This document shows, one piece after another, positions 3,716 through 60,960 of a stretch of 64,000 bases of DNA. Below the pieces are notes generated by a model. That model worked only from the letters and a program-made list of their open reading frames with translations. It had not been told where the DNA came from and did no database searches. The translations under genes were made by a program, and so were the position numbers. Position 1 is the first letter of the stretch, and each line of letters starts with the position of its first letter. This stretch comes from Apostichopus japonicus (lineage: Eukaryota > Echinodermata > Holothuroidea > Aspidochirotida > Stichopodidae). The DNA lies in assembly GCF_037975245.1 (NCBI RefSeq), contig NC_092573.1, positions 22,909,265 to 22,973,264 of the forward strand. Direction: 5' to 3'.

Positions 3716-5189
3716 TGCTACTAGATAAAGTTTATTTCAGTATTCAAAGTATAAATTGTAAGTAAACCTTGTTAAAGATAAAGAAGTTGGAAAGTGATTC
3801 TTTGGCTTATTTCATCCAACAGTACATTTCTTAAAATGTATCTCAATCTTCTTTGTTCCCAAACTTGATGGAAAGAAGAACAACAATTCAGTTTCACCGA
3901 GAAAAAAAAAATTGAAAGCTAATGAAAGAAAGTTAATATTTTTACCCTGCATTATCGTAAAATGACATAATTTGCAGTGCAATTAGTAAAAATTTAGTCA
4001 TCTAAAGCAGATCAACTTGAATATCACTCAAAGGGTACGGGATACTCCTCGCAGGACACGGGCACACTAAAACTCAACCCTGCAGAACCCAGGGCCTGTG
4101 ATTGGCTGGACCTGAAGACCACGTCTGGTAAAGAAAAAAGAAAGAAAAAAACTGACAACGCAGATTTGAAGAACACAAACAATTCATGAAAGTCTCAAAT
4201 TTCACATTTTCAGAGAAACTGCTGTCAAGACCCCATACAGACTCTTCATATCTCATGTGTGACTCTACATAAATCTGACCCAAACAATTGAAGAATTGCA
4301 CTTTGCCACTTACCTGTTAATGAACGACCAAAAACAAACAACTTTATATTGCAAGGCTTGTCTGGAAGTCTGAACTAAGTGGTGCACTTTCCTGCCCCGA
4401 CCCTAAAGTTCACAATAGTGGCTACTTGAGTTGAATGATATGCACTGCTGCCTATGTGATTTTAGTATAATTGCATACACATATATTCTCCATCGTTATC
4501 ATAACTCCAATGTGTGTTCTACTGTGTATAGTGTTAGAGCACATACAACTGCACTATGATTATCTTGGTCAGTGCAAGTATTTAACAATTCTCAAACTGA
4601 GGCAAACATGGCATCCATTCTCCAATCACCTTATCAATTACTATATTGGGTGACATTTTCAGGATCCTACACCCCATATATTTGGGTCTAGGGTAGATTG
4701 TTTTGCCTATTTTAATGTTACCTACTGAGAATGCAACATTTTTGCTATTCCTCCCCAAGCGCTAGACGAGGGCTATTTAACAAAGCATCAATAGAAACAA
4801 TCTTTTTTATTAAAGACATGTTCCATCGAGTGATATTTACCTGACCATACGACATCTATGTTCTGCTATTCGGATCTTAGCATCATCCAATGAAGTCACC
4901 GACTGGGGGCTCCACAACCTTTCTGATACTGCACTAGCTCTTGGCCTGAAGGAGAGAATTCAGAATACCCACATATGATAGGAGATGGTCAAACTATGCA
5001 GCTACCACCTGTAGCATGGACAAAGGGTCATACGACTGTGACCCACGGGAGTTCCCTTATCATATTCCTATCTGTCACTGTGATGGTTAGGCAAAGCAAC
5101 TGTTTTACCTGTGGCTTGGACACAAAGGCCATAAAAAAAAACATGAGGGTACCCTAGTCACATTCCTGTTTGGTGCTGTGATAGCGGCA

Positions 5190-5455
5190 ATTGTTGTTAA
5201 CACTTCAATGGCAGTGTTCCTGATGAATTGGAGCTAACACTTCGATGGCAGTATTCCTGATGGATTGGAGCTAACACTTCGATGGCAGTGTTCCTGATGG
5301 ATTGGAGCTAACACTTCGATGGCAGTGTTCCTGATGGATTGGAGCTAACACTTCGATGGCAGTGTTCCTGATGGATTGGAGCTAACACTTCGATGGCAGT
5401 ATTCCTGATTGATTGGAGCTAATACTTCGATGGCAGTATTCCTGATGGATGCTGA
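5190..5455. repeat. Tandem minisatellite, 37-bp unit
   Basis: About seven copies of a 37-bp unit containing GGAGCTAACACTTCGATGGC and then AGTGTTCCTGAT. Copies are nearly identical, so the array is young or homogenised. Confidence 0.92.
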
Positions 5456-7085
5456 TATGGTGAAGCAGGGTACCTACCATCTTAGGCCACAAGTATCACA
5501 AACAAGTATGAGAAAGTGTACTGTTTAGTGTTACGAAAGTAGAAGATGGGTACCAACCCTAACATGGGTACTAAATCTAACATGGGTCACTTCTAATCTA
5601 TGAAATATAATTATACCCACAAAAAGGAGCCAGTTTCACCTCGCCAGTGAACCTGGAAAGCAAATTAACTTTGCACAAAGAAGCAGGAAGATTACAAGTT
5701 ACCAGTATGCTTACCATAGTCTGGGTATGAGATTAGTACCATCCACAAACTCTCCCCACATGCACACTTCACCTCCAATTACCAACTTCTTCTGAGCATC
5801 AGTTCCTGTTTGAATTCAATGAAGTAAAAAAATAAAAAAGTCTAAACCAATCATAACATATTTACAGATAAAGATTATGATTTTACACTCCAGTACAAGT
5901 TACTAATTACCATTAACAATAAATACTGGAACACCAAAAAAGCAAATAAAAGAAGAATATGATATCCCTATTAAATTATATTATGTTAACTAAAAACCTT
6001 CAGCTTACAAGCCTTCCTCTTGCACTACATCATATATTTATATATGGTCAAGCCATGGTAACCTTACTACAGGTCATATTATCTTTACATTGTTATTTGA
6101 TCAGGGTTTAATATATTAATTGTTATTATAAATGAAATCATCTTCAATATATATCAAACTGAATTTAAAAAACATATTTTTACACAAAACTAGAATATTG
6201 CTGCAAGGTAACAGGAGTGATATGCACAGACGTCTAAGCAGTGAGTTATGAAGTGGAATCAATTGAAAAGTACAAACTTTATTATAAGTAGCATGAGAAG
6301 AGGGATTGGGGGGGGGGTAGAGAGGGGCAAGAGGAACAAATCCCTGACAGTCAACTCCCTTTCTCTACCCCCACCCACACAAGAATGAGAGTGACCACAA
6401 TTCCAGTGATAGAAAAGAGATAACCCCACCAAATCTCTAATCAAGAGACCCAGAAATTGCTGGAAATGTCAATTCAATCATTTGTGCCTACTTTGATATG
6501 CAGTAAATACCAATGCCTGCTACAGGGAGCCTAAAAACATTGGAGAGGTGGGAAAGGGACAGGGATAACTGCTGTACGCTATAGCCATTTATATTAATTT
6601 ATGCAAATTTATGCAACCGTTTGCCCCACCCCTTGTTCCAAGTCTCCATTTCTCTCTGCCCCTCCTCTTTCTCCAAAATAAAAAAATCGAGCTGATAATG
6701 ACATGCAAAACAAAATCCTACACATGGAGCATGATGATCAAGAAAGCAACGATGAAGAATAGAAGTGTGAGATGACAAAAAGAGTTAGTCAACGAAAGTT
6801 AATAAGCCATGCAGACTACTTGGATGCAGAGACTGTCATAGCAACACCAGCATACAGCTCGTAGAACCTTTTTTTTTTTTTTGATAATTTTTTGATAATT
6901 TTTTTTTTTAAATATCTTAACATATTTATTATAATGGGCATAAGGCACTGTGGTGTATCACATGCCCAACAAATTTCTCTGGTATCAAACCAGTAAGCTC
7001 AACTTTGTTAGAGCAACATTTTTTGCGGGCAATACTCAGTCTCTAACAATCATATTTTTATGCCACCTCACACATCCATTCTTAC

Positions 7086-7263
7086 CATTAAAATCCTGTG
7101 GATCTACACCGTAATATCCCTTCCAGTCCTGACCGTACGGACTGGCGACTCGATTCAGGTAGAAAGTAGACGTCAATAAAGTACGGTAGCCCTTAGATGT
7201 CACTTTGGCAAACTCGTTCTGCCATTTCGGCAGCCAGACCTCCACAATGGTGTCATTCTTCAC
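7086..7263 (-). CDS. Hexosaminidase alternative exon 9b
   Basis: 178 nt, the same length and phases as 9a, about 51% identical in protein (30 of 59 positions by hand count) and without stops. Key residues are [12 protein letters not shown] and [12 protein letters not shown]. The Trp before YL is Phe, but the Asn-Arg pair is like human HexA N423-R424. The acceptor GTGCACAG has a poor pyrimidine tract; the donor G/GTAAGA is good. Joined after 9a it reads G-E-E-stop at once, so the two exons should be alternatives. Confidence 0.9.
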
Positions 7264-10200
7264 CTGTGCACGATGCAATGCAGTGAGATATATAGGGCTA
7301 TGACTTCTTGGATTCGTAAAAAAAAACCAATCCAAAACTGTGTGCAAGACCATGAGCCATGTTCCCAGCATGCTGGTACAATAAGATATAGACAGAACCC
7401 TTTTTGTTTTGATGTAAAGATATCAGTAAACTTTAATTTGGAACAAGTCCAAATGGAAAACCACTAACAACAATGAAACTGGTGAAAACATTTTTTGATT
7501 TACCTTTCAACAAAATGCTACATTTTTAAGGATATCGTTTTTAAGTTATCGAGACACTGGGACCAACATGATGTACATTACAAACAGTATGCTAGGGTTG
7601 ATTTGACTATTAAACAGAGATACTGCATTGCCTGCTTTAAGCAAGGAACATGGCTACTGGCATGCCAGCAAGGACTATGAATGGATGAATGGAAATATAT
7701 CATTATCATCATCATCATACATGGAATTACCATTAAAGAGTAAAGGATCTATAGCGTAGAAGTCTTTCCAATCATTGCTGTAAGGTGATTTGAGGTAATT
7801 CAAGTACCACGGTGTCGACAGTATTGTTCTATAACCCTTCTTAGTCACGGCAGACATTTCACCTGGGTATGGAGTTTTCCATACTTCCACAACTGTGTCG
7901 CTTCTAACCTGGGATTAACCAAAGTAAAAATACTACCGAAATTATACAATAATAACAACAAAAAATAGTTAAATAGATTCATCAACCCAAAAAGCACCCA
8001 ATAATTGTTGGCATTCCTACATTTAGATCCCCCATGCCAAAAATTCTTTAACTTTTAGCAAAACTCACTTCAATCCCTTATTAAACCAAGTGCAACACCT
8101 AAATGATTCCCTAAGTGTATGTCTATGCTTTGTAAAAGTCTAATATCACTTCAGTACCAAAACTGACCTGTGGGATTATCAAATTTGCAATGCATTTTTC
8201 CAGCAAAGACATTTCTACTGAATATACCTCCAGCACGGGTCAAACACAAGTGTTTACTTTATGGAAATGATTTCATATATCCTATCTCAACCCCATAACC
8301 AACAACCTCCAGCCCACAAATCCTCCACTTTGCCCCCCCCCCCCCCACATCCCACCTTCACATCATATTTATGGCCCAGGCCATACTGTGCCTGTTGCAA
8401 ACCATCTCACCTTCACATTGTTATCTATCACCTCCTGCCAGACGGCATAACCTGAATTCAAATCGGACATTATATCCAATAGTTTCTGCTCGTAGTATTC
8501 TTCCAGCTTGGAATAATCTGAGCCAAACCCTTGAGCTTTCATGAAATCTGTAATTTGAGGGTTGCTCTGCCTAAAACAATGAAGAAAAGAAACTTATGAG
8601 AATAAATATATCGATGCAATCAAATACTGTCGTGTAATGGAGTCACTCCACGTGTGTGTGCGTGTGTGTGTGTGTTCAGTTGAGGTCAGGACAAATCAAA
8701 GGTGAGCTTATGAAGTTACGAGTGACTTCACCAACACTTACGAGCTGACTCGACTTCCTCCAGTAGGAATTTCACTATCAAGTGAATTCAACTGTTGACA
8801 TGTGAATTCAAGACATATCAAAAGTTAATTTGAGATATGGAATTTTGAACTCACCAACACTTAAAGTTGACTTCATCTCCTCCTAGGTGGATATAATGAT
8901 CTGGGAAAACCGAGGTAATTTCTTGCATAAATGATTTCAAGAAATCATAGGTGCTGTTCAGGGTGGGGTTTACCGGTCCGAAGGTACCATCGGGCTTGTC
9001 TCCGCTGTAGCATGGTGTCAGCAGGTCCTTGATTGACCCCCACGAATTGAAGGTATGGCCGGGGGTGTCAAACTCTGGCATGACCCGGATACCTCTCAAA
9101 CGAGCGTATTCTATCACCAAGGCAACGTCCTCTTGTGTGTACACATGGCTGGGGCTGTAGGCTCCCTGAAATGAATGTACACAAATACAGAGGATAGAGG
9201 ATTGCCAAGTACATGATAGCAAAAGTTTTTCAAAGATTGAGACACCATTACTAATTTGATAAATTATGCCTTTTACATTGGACGATTACAATCCTCTTAC
9301 AGTAGTACTATTAAAGTGAACTGCGATGAACTGAGTGAATGTGTAAGATACTCATCTGACTTGGTAATACGACTAATGAATATGTATCAGCAGATACTCA
9401 TCTGGCTTGGTACTATGACTAATGAATATGTATATCCTACCGATTCTGTGGTCATAGCAGATACTCATCTGACTCAGTACTATGACTAAGGAATATGTAT
9501 ATCCTACCGATTCTGTGGTCATAGCAGATACTCATCTGACTTGGTACTATAACTAATGAATACGTATATCCTACCAATTCTGTGGTCACAGCAGATACTC
9601 ATCTCATAGTGCAACCAATGCTTTCGTTTGTGCAATTTTTCACAGCCTAGGCACAACAAATAAATTGGCATTAATAATGTTCTATGGTTTTAACTAAACT
9701 CCTTTGGTCTAAGGAACATGACTTCATGGGAATTAGACTAGCGACAAGAAAAACCAACTAATCTGAACTGTATTCTGCAACCTGGCAACGTTTGCCAGTT
9801 CATACTGTATGTAGGTCCATTAAATGTGGCAAACGTTCTCCTAGTAGTCCAGATCGATGCAAGAAACAAAAGGAGCATTGGAAAAAATAAAACAGACGGA
9901 TGGATGGATGTATACATTGGCTATAGATCACATCTCATTCTGATAACTTACCGTTTCACTCAAACTGGGAAAGTTTATGCTTTCGTATGGAAAGGCCTGC
10001 ATATCCACAATGTGCCAGTGAAAGACATTGAGTTTGTTATAAGCCATTGCATCCTGAAGAAGAAGAAAAAAACCAGAAAGCCATCAGGCTTAGTGATTTC
10101 TTGACTTATAACTTTATACTGTATATGGAATCCATTGATAGAGCACAAAAAACCAATAGGGTTCTTGTACTCATTAAAGATGCCATATATGCTAGCTACT

Positions 10201-13200
10201 GCAGTTTTCTATCTGGGAATATTGTATAATTTACATAGTGTTCAACTTTTGACACCTTGTGACCTTACATGAACTCTGACCTACATCTTATTGTGTACAA
10301 ACTATACAAAACACAAGGCATATATGAGCTCCTTTGATATTCTGGTTCTGGAGATAAAGCACTTTCGATATATTCACATTTTTCCCTCTGCTGACACCAA
10401 ATGAACTTTGACCTCCACCACAAACAATAGGGTTTGCTGAACTAATTACAGGATATCCACATGCCAAAAATAAGAACTGCACAGGTGACCTTCCTTGTGG
10501 TATCATGTTTACAAGATTTTCACACTTTCTTACCTCTGTTTGCCCTCAAATGACCTTTGACATTCATGAAAAACAGTACATATCGTCTACTTACTAACAG
10601 CAAGCTACACACTAAGTTTGAACTTCCTGCAACTTCTACTTCTTGAGATACTGTGTGAACAACGTTTTTAGACTTTGACTCACATTGACCTCAAATGACC
10701 TTTGACCAATACCAACAACAATCCCAAACCAGTTCTACCTAAGGGGAACCTACATACCAAATATGAAATGAACCCCAGTTATCCTTCTGAAGTTAGAGCG
10801 TTTAGGAGCAAGTGTCACATACACACATGCCATCACCATCGCATAGATTCCTTCTGCCTTCGGCAAGGATTTAAAAATAGATTCAAACTCAAATGACAAG
10901 TTGAAATATTTGTTGTCTATATTGACTGCCACATATATAGTCTTTTAGTATTAAGTAAAAGAAGAAATCCAATCTTATAAATTCTGTGCATCAATTGTTC
11001 AAACAACAGCGACATAGAATAGGGTCAAATCCCTTCTCTGTGACATATCAATCAATTTAATTCCTTTTTCAAAATCCCTGCTAAAGGATAAGACAAGTTA
11101 CTTTCAAACACAAAAACAGTAAAAATGAAAGCTTAAATTACTGACCAGGTTTTGCAGTAGAATAGGCACTTTAATGAAATGGCGAGATGTATCAACTAAG
11201 AGACCTCGGTGCGAGAACCTGGGCGAGTCCTGAATTGTGGTTTTGTTTATTACCAGCTGCAAAAACAATTGTTGAGCAAAAAAGTTGTTGAGAATATTGC
11301 ATTTTGGAAAGCAAAGTTAACAAGCTACTGCTTGCAGGATTTTTGTATTTTTTGGCACAATTAAGGCATTTAAATTATCTTGCACAGACACAATGGGCCT
11401 GCAGCAAACCTCAAACTTCAACGGCGATTCTTATGTACATGCAAAATAAGTTACGTACTCCTGCTTTCAAAGAGTGTCAGGTGAGAGCACAGTTTTGGTG
11501 ATTTTTTTTCAGAAAACCAAATTTTCTCACAAAGATTTAAAGTTTGCTGTCAGTGGTGGCATTAACACAAAATGGTAACAAACGAAAAAAAACTCTGTTC
11601 TAGCAATCTGATTTTGAGGGAAAAAAATTCACTCCAACAATTTCGAGACTTATAAATTTAAGGACCTCGGTATTACTAAATTGCTAAACTTGTGTGAAAA
11701 CTTCAGATGACATTGAAAAGCAGTTCATTTATTACTACCGTGGGCCCAGCTTTGGCTTGCCTCCTCAAGTTTAAGTTACACTACAGGTAGTATAATAGTG
11801 ACTAAGAAGTCAAACATGAAAACTTAGGGTAGTCGGTTTCATACTTACCATACCATCATTATTGTAGTAGGTCAACTGACTAAATGTCTCCAAGCCTAAA
11901 AAGTTTTAAAAAAACAGTAATGTATTGAATAGTTAGTTGGAGGTGAGAAGATACTCAGCTGTGGCTTTAATTGACCAACTGAATCCCTCCTCATCCATGA
12001 TATGTGAAGGCAATAAACGATTTGAAACATTAAAAACTACATATTTGGCAATACAAAGCTATCAAGTCAACTTTATCACTCATTGAAAACAATAATTGTC
12101 ACAGGCTGTTTTGTTTAATTTTTTTTGCTTCTTAGATTTGAAAGTGCAACTAACTAAGTGAGATTAGAGCTCAATCCAAGGACATCATGTTTTCTACCAA
12201 CTATAGGTGGTAACCATCTACTGTAGTCCTTAGCTGCTGATAACATAACCTTTGCTGCATGGGTGCCAGCAGTCAGTACACCAAGACTAAAGACGAATGA
12301 GATGAATCATAGATAGAATCCTTTATAAGGCAATTTATACAATTTGTAAAAAGTTGTTTCAATTTCCACAACTTTCTCTACTGTTCTCTTTTAACTGAAT
12401 GGACAGAAATACAATCTTTAATACAGGTATCACAAATAGATTTATATCAATGTATTAAAAATTGAAAAAAACAACTTAAAATAGCTATTCTTTGCCAGTT
12501 CCTTCCATGGAGGAAACCTCTCTGTATCTTTTGGTCCCAATAAAAGAAATAAAGGGTCAGATCACCGTAAGATTCTTCAAACGTAGACTGTACTAACTCC
12601 CGCAGAATGAAACATTGGCACTGGACATTAACATGTTTTATGACTTGCAACTTGCAGCTAAGTCTTTTTCTTGTCATAAATTTCATTATAACTTTTTTGA
12701 CCTCCTACTCCCACTACTAAAAAATAATCCCCTCACCATCCCCCCTCTCCACCCTTTCATTCCTCCCCCCCCCCCCCCCCGTTGTACAGTAAATATGATA
12801 ACTTACCACTCAAACCACCCCAAATGGTGTTCGCAATTATTGAGGAATTCGCATCGCCGACGGCAAGTGAATCTGATTTTTTTAAACAGAGAAGTAGAAA
12901 ATTGACAAATATTACGTGGATGAAATGAAGATAATCTTCAAGGATTTGTGATGAAACAAACAAAATATTCTATAATGGATCAAAATTTGTCCATTCTTCT
13001 GTTTTGAGAAACTGTACTGCAGATGAACAAATACAATCTGTGGTCACAATGTGTCAAGAAATAACAAGTTGACAAATTTGTAAACCGCTATAGCTACTGT
13101 CACTCACATTTGGCCAAGGTTCCAGTTCCAATTCTCACATCGAGAAAACGGTTTGTAATTAGAGTACCATGATGGAGCCAATGATTTTATTGGTTTTAAC

Positions 13201-14895
13201 AATATTAGTTAAGCACATTAAACTATTGCCACTGTAAGTTACTGATCTCGGTAAATTTTGGACAGGTATAGTGTATGATAAAATCCACTTAGTTTTGAAT
13301 CTTCAAAGGTATCCTGTATTGACCCTAATTATGCCAGATTTTCAAAACATGGTCACTTTTGGTCAAAATTCTTTAACTGTTTTAGTACCACCCTGGAGGA
13401 AATTTACCTCATTGGGATATGCAGTCATTTTGTGTGTAAATTTATTAAGAATGTCTGAGAACCATTCGGAGAGTAAATACCTCCAGGAAAGTACTTTTTC
13501 TAAGATTCTAGCAATTACAGAACGCTTTAATTTGGGGCCTATACAGGCTACCTTTAACAATCAGATCCAAAACAACATTTTACTCACATGATTCATCACT
13601 CTCAAGAGACGGATATTCATTATCTTCACACTTCTTAATAGTGACTGCCACATTCTGCAGAGTACTAGAGGCCAGCAGCTTGCCAAGATGGTCATTTTTG
13701 GTTGACTTCTTCTGCCAATTTGACGATTCAGGAGTGCCGTAGAAAATTATATTCCGATAACGTTTGAAGGCAGCTTCCAAGATGTTGCAAGTATCTCCAG
13801 CGGCAATAAATCTAAGTTAACCAATTTGAGAGGGTGAGTGTAGGAAATGTACTTGAGAAATTCTACATTCATCTTACAACAATCTCAAAACTTTCATAGC
13901 TATAGCATGCTATAATTGGAGCTAATAAAGCAGATCTTTGAGCATGCACATTTTAATTTATTCTTTATAAAGTAGCCTATAGGCTAAATAGGATATTTTA
14001 TAGTATATATAAAGCCCAAGTCACATCATAGTCATATCAGTCACATCATAGTCATACCCTTTAAGCAGCAATTCAACAACCACAAAAAATCTCTCGGGCA
14101 TGAAAAGTACCAAAAAGAAACAGAACTGTCGAAGTACGTATGGAACCTGAAAAGAGTAGGAATTAGCCACAATGTAAGCTGGGAGATAGTAAAGGAATCG
14201 AACGTGCACAAACGTGACTCGGGCCAGTGCAACCTCTGCGTAGAAGAAAAGCTGGCAATCTTACGTACCAAGGACAGTTTAAACAAAAAAACAGAGCTCA
14301 TCTCAAAGTGTCTCCATTTCAACAAAACTAATATGTTAAGGTCACATACACAAATGTTTACGTCCAGTTGTCTGATGATGGCCGCACACTGCAGGCTTGA
14401 AAATTGAGTAACAACATGCTGTAAGTTACCGTTCATACTAGGTATAATATATATTATTTTATTTATATATTATTTCATGTGTGTATTCCTATGCTGGGGT
14501 TTTCTATGGTTGGGCTTTCCATCTGGGCATGTGCCCTTATTGGCCCTTTAACCTGTAATGTTATATAATGTGTTATTATGTCAGTCTGTATGATTATGAA
14601 CTAGGCCTATGAATGATGCAGTAACGTTACCCGTAATAACTTTGGATAATTACTTGCAAAGTGTATAATATTTCTACATTTCCACCAGTAATTAGTTCGT
14701 ATTAAATAATTTATATGAATAAAATATTCCTGAATACCTGAACTCTTCGGCCCCGCTCATCACCACAACTTCGTCCGTTTGTGTGAAAGACATAGGCATA
14801 GGCCATGGTGAACCGTTACTAACTGACGACCCGGAAGAAAGACCGTACATACATAACGTTAGGCCTAATATCAAAGTGGAAAAAAGAGAAAGCAT
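7086..14895 (-). CDS. HEX (HEXA/HEXB-like): Lysosomal beta-hexosaminidase subunit (HEXA/HEXB-like), C-terminus outside window
   Basis: A GH20 beta-N-acetylhexosaminidase, which removes terminal GlcNAc/GalNAc from glycoconjugates in the lysosome. The exons join in frame into about 452 residues: signal peptide (about 1-21), GH20b-type N-domain (about 30-165), then the TIM barrel. Visible catalytic or pocket residues are Arg190 (DTSRHF), Asp219 (HWHIVD), His273 (DTPGH), Asp333-Glu334 (GGDEV), Trp384 (VWQEV), Trp403, Tyr428 and Asn430. These match human HexA R178, D207, H262, D322-E323, W373, W392, Y421 and N423 as I recall them. N-glycosylation sequons occur at 169 and 306. The last part (WGEYVD and C-terminal helix) is missing from the window, so the gene is partial. 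Exon 9 exists in two tandem versions. HexA and HexB orthology cannot be separated here, since invertebrates often have one ancestral subunit. Confidence 0.95.
7264..7730 (-). other. Intron between alternative exons 9a and 9b
   Basis: 467 nt without a further coding copy. Near the 9a donor is a CAT/ATG trinucleotide run (7698-7720). Near the 9b acceptor is a T run (complement of a8 at 7319). No third copy of the exon was found here or between 8411 and 7908. Confidence 0.7.
7731..7908 (-). CDS. Hexosaminidase alternative exon 9a
   Basis: 178 nt (59 codons plus 1), matching the human exon of about 184 nt that forms the substrate pocket. Key residues are VEVW (Trp403), STPWYLNYL (Tyr428, Asn430, Tyr431) and [11 protein letters not shown]. 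The acceptor TTAATCCCAG has a T-rich tract upstream; the donor is G/GTAATT. It keeps the canonical PWYL motif. Its sister 9b lies 467 nt downstream with identical length and phases. Confidence 0.93.
8411..8570 (-). CDS. Hexosaminidase exon 8
   Basis: 160 nt, exactly the sum of the human exons 9 and 10 (87 and 73 nt, as I recall), so again fused. It completes Trp340 and encodes [19 protein letters not shown], then the AVWQEV segment with pocket Trp384. Acceptor TTTTAG/G, donor AAG/GTGAGA, ending in phase 0. Confidence 0.94.
8647..8675. repeat. GT microsatellite
   Basis: A run of GTGTGTGCGTGTGTGTGT type in the intron between hexosaminidase exons 7 and 8. Confidence 0.85.
8855..9165 (-). CDS. 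Hexosaminidase exon 7 (active-site Asp-Glu)
   Basis: 311 nt covering what is two exons (133 and 181 nt, as I recall) in the human genes. It contains [31 protein letters not shown] and [11 protein letters not shown]. His273 and the catalytic pair Asp333-Glu334 are intact. An NST sequon is at 306. Acceptor TTTCAG/GGA, donor TG/GTGAGT (phase 2). Confidence 0.96.
9353..9610. repeat. Tandem repeat, about 67-bp unit, in hexosaminidase intron 6
   Basis: About four copies of a unit starting CAGATACTCATCTG and containing ACTATGACTAATGAATATGT and CCGATTCTGTGGTCA. The first copy is shortened. Confidence 0.9.
9952..10053 (-). CDS. Hexosaminidase exon 6
   Basis: 102 nt, 34 codons, phase 0 to 0, the same length as the mammalian exon 6. 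It encodes [20 protein letters not shown] then FPYES. The first Asp of the human VDD motif is kept (Asp219); the second is Met220. Acceptor CTTCAG/GAT, donor ACG/GTAAGT. Confidence 0.95.
10255..10720 (-). repeat. Dispersed AGGTCA-type repeat, inverted copy
   Basis: TGACCTCAAATGACCTTTGA and related phrases recur here at about 10395, 10545 and 10690, joined by 'gatattctggttctggagat' and 'tgttcacaa'-like text. This is the inverse of the family at 720-1260. It lies inside hexosaminidase intron 5. Confidence 0.65.
11146..11256 (-). CDS. Hexosaminidase exon 5 (catalytic Arg)
   Basis: 111 nt, 37 codons, phase 0 to 0, the same length as the mammalian exon 5. It encodes [19 protein letters not shown], with the substrate-binding Arg of DTSRHF at residue 190, and an NKT sequon at 169. 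Acceptor CAG/CTG, donor CTG/GTCAGT. Confidence 0.95.
11849..11895 (-). CDS. Hexosaminidase exon 4
   Basis: A 47-nt exon, equal to the mammalian exon 4. Acceptor TTTAG/GC, donor ATG/GTAAGT. With the split Gly it encodes [16 protein letters not shown], aligning with human [10 protein letters not shown]. It starts after a phase-1 split and ends in phase 0. Confidence 0.93.
12765..12780. repeat. 16-base C/G homopolymer next to exon 3 donor
   Basis: Sixteen consecutive C on the plus strand. In the hexosaminidase transcript this is a G run 26 nt downstream of the exon 3 splice donor, preceded by CT-rich sequence (plus strand) from about 12700. Confidence 0.85.
12807..12872 (-). CDS. Hexosaminidase exon 3
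   Basis: A 66-nt exon, the same length as the mammalian exon 3 as I recall it. Acceptor AATCAG/AT, donor AGTG/GTAAGT. It encodes [20 protein letters not shown], matching the human TLLVKEPVAVLKANRVWGAL region. A run of 16 G (transcribed strand) begins 26 nt into the downstream intron. Confidence 0.92.
13588..13811 (-). CDS. Hexosaminidase exon 2 (N-domain)
   Basis: Acceptor TTAACTTAG/A, donor CAT/GTGAGT, 224 nt. It encodes [14 protein letters not shown], typical of the family, and ends in SLESDES before a split Tyr codon, like the human ISSDESY. It starts in phase 2 and ends in phase 1, consistent with its neighbours. Confidence 0.93.
14057..14407 (+). mobile_element. Retroelement polyprotein relic (plus strand, in hexosaminidase intron 1)
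   Basis: One open plus-strand frame contains [51 protein letters not shown] and [11 protein letters not shown] in that order. The succession NHKKS / TELSK-W-LK / SW-I / C-LC-EK / LNKR-ELISKC is one I recall from the C-terminal end of many metazoan retroelement proteins. I cannot assign the clade. Only about 90 codons survive before similarity fades after about 14335. The long minus-strand frame over the same stretch (14041-14436) is its shadow. Confidence 0.6.
14738..14895 (-). CDS. Hexosaminidase exon 1 (signal peptide)
   Basis: The ATG is at 14895-14893. The exon encodes 52 codons plus 2 nt and ends CAG/GTATTC. Residues 2-21 are hydrophobic ([20 protein letters not shown]), as expected for a lysosomal enzyme signal peptide. 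SPWPMPMSF follows, matching the LWPLPLS-type start of the mature N-domain. The split codon completes to Arg with exon 2, giving RFIAAGDTC. No in-frame upstream ATG competes. Confidence 0.9.
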
Positions 14896-18103: not shown

Positions 18104-18175
18104 AGGGGACACCCGGATTTGAACCAGGGACCTCTCGATCTGCAGTCGAATGCTCTACCACTGAGCTATATCCCC
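18104..18175 (-). tRNA. tRNA-Cys: tRNA-Cys (GCA)
   Basis: 72 nt on the minus strand, folding as a full cloverleaf: acceptor GGGGATA with TGTCCCC, D-arm GCTC/GAGC, anticodon stem TTCGA/TCGAG around loop CTGCAGA (anticodon GCA), and T-arm CCTGG-TTCAAAT-CCGGG. The discriminator base is T, the expected Cys identity base. CCA is not encoded. A T5 pol III terminator follows within a few bases. A and B boxes are intact and there is no intron. Nuclear gene. Confidence 0.96.
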
Positions 18176-44870: not shown

Positions 44871-44875
44871 TCATA

Positions 44876-45285
44876 GTATAGTGTGTATAGTGTAGTATAG
44901 TGTAATGTAGTGTAGTATAGTCTAGTATTGTATAGTAAAGTATAGTGTAGTATAGTATCTATAGTATAGTATAGTGTGTATAGTGTAGTATAGTATAATG
45001 TAGTATAGTCTAGTGTAGTATAGTGTTATGTAGTATAGTATAGTGTAGTATAGTATAGTGTAGTATAGTGTAGTATAGTCTAGTATTGTATAGTATAGTT
45101 GAGTATAGTGTAGTATAGTATAGTATCTATAGTATAGTATAGTGTGTATATTGTAGTATAGTGTAATGTAGTGTAGTGTAGTATAGTCTAGTATTGTGTA
45201 GTATAGTATAGTAAAGTATAGTGTAGTATAGTATGGTGTAGTTTAGTACAGTGTGGTACAGTATAGTACAGTGTGAAGTATATAC
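44876..45285. repeat. TATAG/TGTAG minisatellite
   Basis: About 400 bp made almost wholly of 5-bp steps TATAG, TGTAG, TCTAG and TAAAG, with higher-order blocks (for example the block around GTATCTATAGTATAGTATAG near 44955 and again near 45125). Confidence 0.93.
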
Positions 45286-58399: not shown

Positions 58400-58720
58400 G
58401 CCACCACATGAGACCGTGGTGGCCAATTGGCTAAGGCCTCGGACTCGTGATCCAAGGATAGCTGGTTTGATTCCTGCCTAGTTCATTACGTTGTGTCCTT
58501 GGGCAAGATGCTTTATCTCACTTGCCTCTCTCCACCCAGGGGTTAAATGGGTACCTATGAGGTAACTTGTCATTGGGCGCAGTATATAACTGCTGCCGAC
58601 TGGAGGGATTGTCTCTGGGACAGGTTATCATTGACCAGGGGTAATATAACGTCTGTAAAGCGCTTTGAGACCTATCGCTGGTACAGTATAAAGCGCTATA
58701 TAAAAAGCAAATATTATATT
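58400..58720 (+). repeat. tRNA-derived SINE with conserved 3' tail
   Basis: The head has A box GTGGCCAATTGGCTAAGG and B box GGTTTGATTCC. The middle has GTGTCCTTGGGCAAGATGC. The tail has TGTAAAGCGCTTTGAGACC and AAGCGCTATATAAAAAGCA. This modular layout (tRNA head, CCTTGGGCAAGA block, CGCTATATAA tail) recurs in SINEs of fishes and marine invertebrates. I cannot name the exact superfamily domain. The 77-codon minus frame over it is a shadow. Confidence 0.85.
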
Positions 58721-59929: not shown

Positions 59930-60960
59930 TTTCAAAGTAGAAAGTAACAGGGTTAACCGGCATAAAGTGGAAAGCAAATAGGATTATATACTGGTAGAAA
60001 GTAATAGGGTTTATTGTTAGAAAGTAGAAAGTAACAGGGTTAACCAGTAGAAAGTACCAAGGATAACTTAAAGAAAGTAATAAAATTACTGGTAGAAAGT
60101 TACAAGGATTTATGGTAGAAAGTAATAGGGTTTATTTCTAGAAAGTAGAAAGTAACAGCCCTGGTAAACACGTAGAAAGTACTGGGATTACTGGTAGAAA
60201 GTAATTGAGATTACTGGTAGAAAGTAACAGGGAGTACTAGTAGAAAGTACAAGGATTACTAGTAGAAAGTAACAAAACATTACTAGTAGAAAGTACTGGG
60301 ATTACTGGTAGAAAGTAATTGAGATTACTGGTAGAAAGTAACAGGGAGTACTAGTAGAAAGTGCAAGGATGACTAGTAGAAAGTAACAAAAATTACTGGT
60401 AGAAAGTAATAGAGATTACCGGTAGAAAGTAATAGGGATTACTGGTAGATAGTAATAGAGATTACTGGTAGAAAGTAACAAGAATTACTAGTAGAAAGTA
60501 ACAAGAATTACTGGTAGAAAGTAATAGGGATTACTGGTAGAAAGTAATAGAGCTTACTGGTAGAAAGTAACAAGAATTACAGGTAGAAAGTAACAAGAAT
60601 TACAGGTAGAAAGTAATAGGGATTACTGGTAGAAAGTAATAGAGATTACTGGTAGAAAGTAACAAGAATTACAGGTAGAAAGTAACAAGAATTACAGGTA
60701 GAAAGTAATAGGGTTTATTGTAAGACAGTAGAAAGTAACAGGGTTAACAGGTAGAAAGTACCAGGTATTACTAAGTAGAAAGTAATAGGGATTACTGGTA
60801 GAAATTAACAAGTATTACTGTTAGATAGTACAAACTTAACAGGATTTATTGTTAGAAAGTAGAAAGTAACAAGGTTAACCTGTAGAGAGTAGAAGGTAAC
60901 AAGGATTACCAGAAGAAAGTAACAGGGTTTATTGTTAAAAATGTTACAGGTTTTACTGGT
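59930..60960. repeat. Long minisatellite, about 23-bp unit
   Basis: About 45 copies of a unit around GGTAGAAAGTAATAGGGATT-ACT, with variants AACAAGAATT, AACAGGGAGT and ACAAGGATT. Higher-order duplication is visible: a block of several units near 60180-60290 is repeated near 60295-60400. TTACT and AGTAA in each unit are complementary. Confidence 0.95.

Follow-up and report, generated by a model that had tools for sequence, protein, structure and literature searches.

Two candidate mutually exclusive coding exons in the only HEXA/HEXB-type hexosaminidase gene found in the sea cucumber Apostichopus japonicus

Mutually exclusive exons are a known mechanism, and the M1/M2 pair of PKM and the A/B pair of CYP4F3 are examples in which the choice between two such exons alters an enzyme. 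A single hexosaminidase gene has been predicted for the common ancestor of humans and flies (PMC4006722), and the data on the vertebrate HEXA/HEXB duplication have been described as consistent with a date after the tunicate split (PMC2492878). The site residues of HEXA, the α subunit, have been listed as R178, D207, H262, E323, D322, W373, W392, Y421, N423, R424 and E462 (PMC3377590). The hydrolysis of charged substrates has been attributed mainly to the α pair N423-R424, as opposed to D452-L453 in the β subunit HEXB, and the possible pairing partners of R424 are given as the 6-sulfate in MUGS and the sialic acid in GM2 (PMC3587417); an interaction between Arg424 and the 6-sulfate is stated in similar terms in a second source (PMC8162980). 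Hybrids based on the β chain but carrying N-R are reported to hydrolyse MUGS, while homodimers of two of them, H1 and H2, are reported not to hydrolyse GM2 with the human activator, contrary to an earlier report by others (PMC3587417).

The window analysed here, a stretch of 64,000 nucleotides from A. japonicus, contains a complete hexosaminidase gene on the minus strand; its start codon is at position 14895 and its stop codon ends at position 4067 (window coordinates are used throughout). The gene has 12 exon slots, and slot 9 is occupied twice, by exons 9a and 9b; with either version, the joined open reading frame comprises 536 codons plus a stop. Exon 1 (14738–14895) opens with the start codon and encodes an N-terminus that looks signal-like by eye. 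It is followed, on the same strand, by exons 2 (13588–13811), 3 (12807–12872) and 4 (11849–11895). The equivalent of R178 lies in exon 5 (11146–11256) and that of D207 in exon 6 (9952–10053), while exon 7 (8855–9165) encodes the equivalents of H262 and of the catalytic pair D322-E323, as well as an α-like loop, GDKPDG. Exon 8 (8411–8570), with the W373 equivalent, ends in phase 0. In the order of transcription, exon 9a (7731–7908), an intron of 467 nt (7264–7730) and exon 9b (7086–7263) come next, and the gene is completed by exon 10 (5715–5805), which starts in phase 1 and carries the E462 equivalent, exon 11 (4841–4945) and exon 12 (4067–4124), which contains the stop codon.

Aligned over residues 25–533, the protein with 9a scores 615.8 bits against a human HEXB chain (wild-type β chains range from 613.9 to 615.8), and over residues 31–536 it scores 605.4 bits against a HEXA chain. 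The catalytic Asp-Glu is present in a GGDE motif. By this near full-length similarity and the catalytic Asp-Glu we class the gene as HEXA/HEXB-type, and a lysosomal location is predicted for its product. The top PDB match of the 9a protein is 5bro (624.4 bits), a HEXB chain with GSEP and Asn-Arg at the places where other HEXB chains have RQNK and Asp-Leu. We take 5bro to be an engineered chain, with which its letters in the alignment agree.

As a bacterial outgroup we used the best 80 of 110 relatives obtained from a scan of genome contigs with exon 7, all of them prokaryotic. Exon 6 encodes a Met, not an Asp, immediately after the D207 equivalent, at the position of HEXA D208, where the HWH..DD stretch has its second Asp; this column holds Asp in 70, Asn in 9 and Tyr in 1 of the 80 bacterial rows. 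Two introns of the gene harbour tandem arrays, one with a 37-nt unit (6.8 copies, 96% matches, 5198–5450) between exons 10 and 11 and one with a 67-nt unit (3.2 copies, 9389–9604) between exons 6 and 7. Other features of the window are a higher-order tandem array of 34/100 nt that lies downstream of the gene (1277–1652), a long ATAGT array (44873–45272), a 46/23-nt array (60024–60830) and predicted genes for tRNA-Cys (18104–18175, minus strand) and tRNA-Thr (58412–58484, plus strand).

The original prediction was that 9a and 9b are alternatives of which a full-length protein can use only one, and the anatomy of the locus agrees with it. Both exons are 178 nt long, are entered in phase 0 and left in phase 1, lie between intact AG and GT signals and are open, and both align with the same stretch of the human HEXA and HEXB chains. 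They are identical at 30 of 59 residues, in line with the figure of about 51% that had been given, and at 97 of 177 nucleotides. A transcript with 9a alone or 9b alone encodes 536 amino acids followed by a stop at codon 537. Inclusion of both exons (8-9a-9b-10), in contrast, reads F-N-G-E-E-stop and ends at codon 456 inside 9b, and omission of both (8-10) shifts the frame to E-L-M-L-R-R-S-W-stop, eight new codons that end at codon 402 inside exon 10. The locus thus combines homologous tandem exons of compatible length and phase, intact splice sites and a frame that breaks on double or null inclusion, and we can confirm the observation of a duplicate, frame-exclusive exon 9. Messages with both exons or with neither would carry a premature stop with two or more junctions downstream, and nonsense-mediated decay would be expected for them. 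Given the frame, only single-exon mRNAs would remain after such decay, each productive mRNA carrying exactly one of 9a and 9b.

A comparison of the two exons indicates that selection has acted on their protein sequence. The differences are distributed 25/18/37 over codon positions 1, 2 and 3. The NG86 method returned a dN of 0.46 and no finite dS, and the maximum-likelihood option a dN of 0.50 and a dS of 11.9; synonymous divergence between 9a and 9b is saturated. The exon-to-exon score was matched by none of 300 shuffles, while similarity was absent from the 150-nt intron flanks of the two exons, for which 63 and 215 of 300 shuffles scored equally well. In a neutral simulation of 4000 runs, one copy was allowed to drift unconstrained to the observed DNA distance. 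The runs retained a mean of 15.4 identical residues and 26 at best, none reached the observed 30, and a stop was gained in 3706 of the 4000 copies. From the absence of runs with 30 identities and the frequency of stops, we infer that 9b has been kept as protein.

These results bear on the reading that 9a alone is used and that 9b is a decaying copy skipped by the splicing machinery. 9b is indeed the more divergent of the two. Its identities to HEXA (26/57, versus 28/57 for 9a) and HEXB (24/57 versus 27/57) are lower, as is the mean number of identities to the 78 of 80 bacterial rows that cover the exon-9 segment (12.4 versus 16.0; L058 and L074 were dropped). It also keeps fewer of the 24 columns with at least 70% agreement among these rows (8 versus 10), and its acceptor is weaker. 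However, its frame is open and both of its splice sites are intact despite the saturated synonymous divergence, neutral drift did not once yield 30/59, and the W, G, L and Y that are invariant in the 78 rows are present in 9b as they are in 9a. We therefore regard decay as unlikely, although 9b may have been released from constraint only recently. Weighing the constraint against the divergence, 9b is, on balance, probably not a dead exon. A second reading holds that 9b is a poison exon whose double inclusion lowers enzyme levels by triggering nonsense-mediated decay, without any 9b protein being made. The stop after N-G-E-E at the 9a-9b junction fits such a role, yet a poison exon has no need of amino-acid constraint, which the pair does display, and 9b alone gives a full frame. 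This reading appears quite improbable to us.

The remaining concern, that 9b stems from a separate or truncated gene copy, was addressed by a search of the genome (671,581,487 bases, 35 contigs) with queries from four of the 12 exon slots, namely exons 5, 7, 9a, 9b and 10. Exons 5, 7 and 10 each returned a single place. The 9a query returned itself, 9b and one extra match at an E-value of 4.4, and the 9b query only itself and 9a. Two places were found with the GH20 family model, and their coordinates identify them as exons 7 and 6 of the same gene. Other animals do possess multiple hexosaminidase genes, such as the Drosophila triplet (PMC4006722). Against a similar arrangement here stand the single places in 671.58 Mb and the position of 9b between 9a and exon 10 in the same orientation. 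Against an assembly artefact stands the difference between 9a and 9b at 80 of 177 bases, which is not that of haplotypes. Either origin seems very improbable, and the five exon queries revealed no second gene copy from which 9b could have come. Within the limits of a search in which short exons and N stretches reduce sensitivity and a remote, HEXD-like GH20 could escape, the animal seems to have one HEXA/HEXB-type gene, as compared with two in vertebrates.

Three further scans were performed. A PF14845 family search of the genome gave no match, a result that carries little weight. PF02221, an ML-type domain, gave two genome matches, one of them with an internal stop, and these do not distinguish a GM2 activator from an NPC2-like protein. 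Viral contigs scanned with 9a and 9b yielded 9 and 15 pattern matches, respectively, with no relative among them.

Splice sites were scored with a consensus matrix. The two exons had been predicted to have signals of complementary strength, and the direction of this claim holds: 9a has the better acceptor (5.5 versus 2.0) and 9b the better donor (8.6 versus 6.2). However, none of the four scores falls outside the range seen at the other sites of the gene (4.3 to 10.7 for 10 donors, −1.4 to 12.4 for 10 acceptors), and for this reason the complementarity is a weak sign of regulation. Both donors read GTAA.. and look U2-like by eye. In the region of the 9b acceptor (7264–7330, minus strand), a long T-run lies about 55 nt upstream and is followed by three additional AGs that precede the true one; the nearest of these is at −34, and each would lead to a stop as judged by eye.

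No exclusion device other than the frame was seen among intron length and intron pairing; the 467-nt intron is not short, and pairing is not clearly above that of shuffles. The best duplex between the 9a-9b intron and the first 500 nt of the intron that follows 9b reached −30.7, compared with a mean of −26.0 and a best value of −30.0 for 12 shuffles, and the other two intron pairs formed duplexes within the range of their shuffles. The 9a-9b intron itself folds with a z-score of −1.88, and 5 of 100 shuffles were equally good. With one of three pairs slightly beating 12 shuffles and a fold of this z-score, we did not take intron RNA pairing as evidence of an exclusion device.

Four of the listed HEXA site residues fall within exon 9, namely W392, Y421, N423 and R424 (numbered as chain number + 22). 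Counted on the alignments, the protein matches 11 of the 11 listed residues with 9b and 10 of 11 with 9a. The equivalents of W392, Y421 and N423 are retained in both exons, and the difference lies at the R424 position, where 9b encodes Arg and 9a encodes Tyr. The α-type Asn-Arg at 423-424 is thus found in 9b only, while the Asn-Tyr of 9a also differs from the charge-repelling β-type pair, Asp-Leu. Other α-type features are lacking: HEXA E394 and the IPV segment are absent from both 9a and 9b in the alignment, and the loop reads GDKP instead of the α-type GSEP. The W420 position is Phe in 9b; the bacterial relatives have Tyr in 73 and Phe in 5 of 78 rows. The Asn-Tyr of 9a, the missing E394 and IPV and the Phe at W420 weigh against a difference in charge preference. 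The original prediction of two different pockets is strengthened by the difference at the R424 position; the other three listed exon-9 residues are the same in both forms. With 29 of 59 residues changed between the exons, a mismatch at R424 would in itself be unsurprising, and only its identity in 9b as Arg, the α residue, is suggestive.

Exon-9 choice would swap part of the active site. The role of R424 in reading charge, together with the Arg in 9b, leads to the prediction of a low MUG/MUGS ratio for the 9b form and a higher one for the 9a form. A 9b subunit would then resemble human α in accepting 6-sulfated sugars and anionic glycolipids, and a 9a subunit would act mainly on neutral substrates; we give such a charge switch an even chance. 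Alternatively, both exons could be used with a minor effect on the pocket, the swap tuning stability, dimerisation, pH or tissue expression. This possibility, which we consider unlikely but by no means negligible, draws on the finding that just one of the many differing residues is among those listed for the pocket, and on the statement, made in general terms, that one subunit contributes residues which complete the active site of its partner (PMC3587417). However, the sole listed residue to change is the one that reads charge. The exon-9 segment includes the position of HEXB Tyr456, which presumably completes the site of the partner subunit.

Over the exon-9 segment, human HEXA and HEXB are identical at 31 of 58 residues, and the divergence of α and β is here about equal to that of 9a and 9b. 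Besides the four invariant residues, a nearly invariant bacterial Tyr and Asp-Pro are also kept in both exons. The 423 position is Asp in 78 of 78 bacterial rows and Asn in both 9a and 9b, and the 424 position is Leu in 72 of 78 rows. On these counts, the β-type Asp-Leu pair looks ancestral. A two-residue insertion (Ser-Pro as aligned) is common to 9a and 9b and lacking from both human chains, which suggests that the exon duplication was probably independent of the vertebrate gene duplication. A tree of the exon-9 segment, built from 12 rows of which four were animal and eight bacterial, set the animal rows apart but gave no order among them and no date for the duplication.

Tandem homology, frame breakage, protein constraint and a search that found no second copy together support the original, mutually exclusive interpretation. 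We place the probability that 9a and 9b form a functional mutually exclusive coding pair, in the sole HEXA/HEXB-type gene found, at about 0.75. The best explanation overall, which joins this pair to a 9b form for anionic and a 9a form for neutral substrates, is likewise probable. The 9a and 9b subunits may also form mixed dimers. Sea cucumbers have highly sulfated glycans of their own. In a more far-reaching and tentative proposal, to which we give somewhat less than an even chance, exon choice in one gene would provide α-like, charge-accepting and non-α subunits that pair into HexA-, HexB- and HexS-like isozymes, and splicing would have arrived independently at the division of labour reached by duplication in vertebrates, possibly to deal with these glycans.

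If this is correct, alternative splicing would be doing the work of gene duplication, with a prediction that concerns a single residue and a standard assay (MUG versus MUGS), and the locus would offer a lead on the breakdown of sulfated glycans in sea cucumbers. It would also be a natural, single-gene counterpart of the α/β hybrid subunits that were designed with a view to treating Tay-Sachs and Sandhoff disease. The listed pocket position that differs between 9a and 9b is one that separates human α and β, two disease-linked subunits from two genes. We found no description of such a hexosaminidase exon cassette among the titles and abstract openings listed by searches of the open-access literature.

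Several known systems can be set beside this locus. The HEXB-based hybrids H1 and H2 (PMC3587417) and 5bro combine an α-type loop with N-R, as the 9b isoform does with the GDKP contributed by exon 7. The hybrids, however, are engineered and have a GSEP loop, whereas the sea cucumber loop is natural and would, if the pair is real, be combined with an N-R that is switchable by splicing. In Drosophila, hexo1, hexo2 and fdl likewise provide several subunits that go back to one ancestral gene shared with humans, but there by gene duplication (PMC4006722) and here by exon choice. Vertebrates, too, arrived at HEXA and HEXB through duplication into two genes, while the sea cucumber has one gene with two exons. 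In PKM M1/M2 and CYP4F3A/B, as proposed here, tandem homologous exons are used one per mRNA and change catalytic properties. Unlike these, the sea cucumber pair resides in a predicted lysosomal glycosidase and involves a charge-reading pocket residue, and, derived from DNA alone, it is a well-supported candidate for this class.
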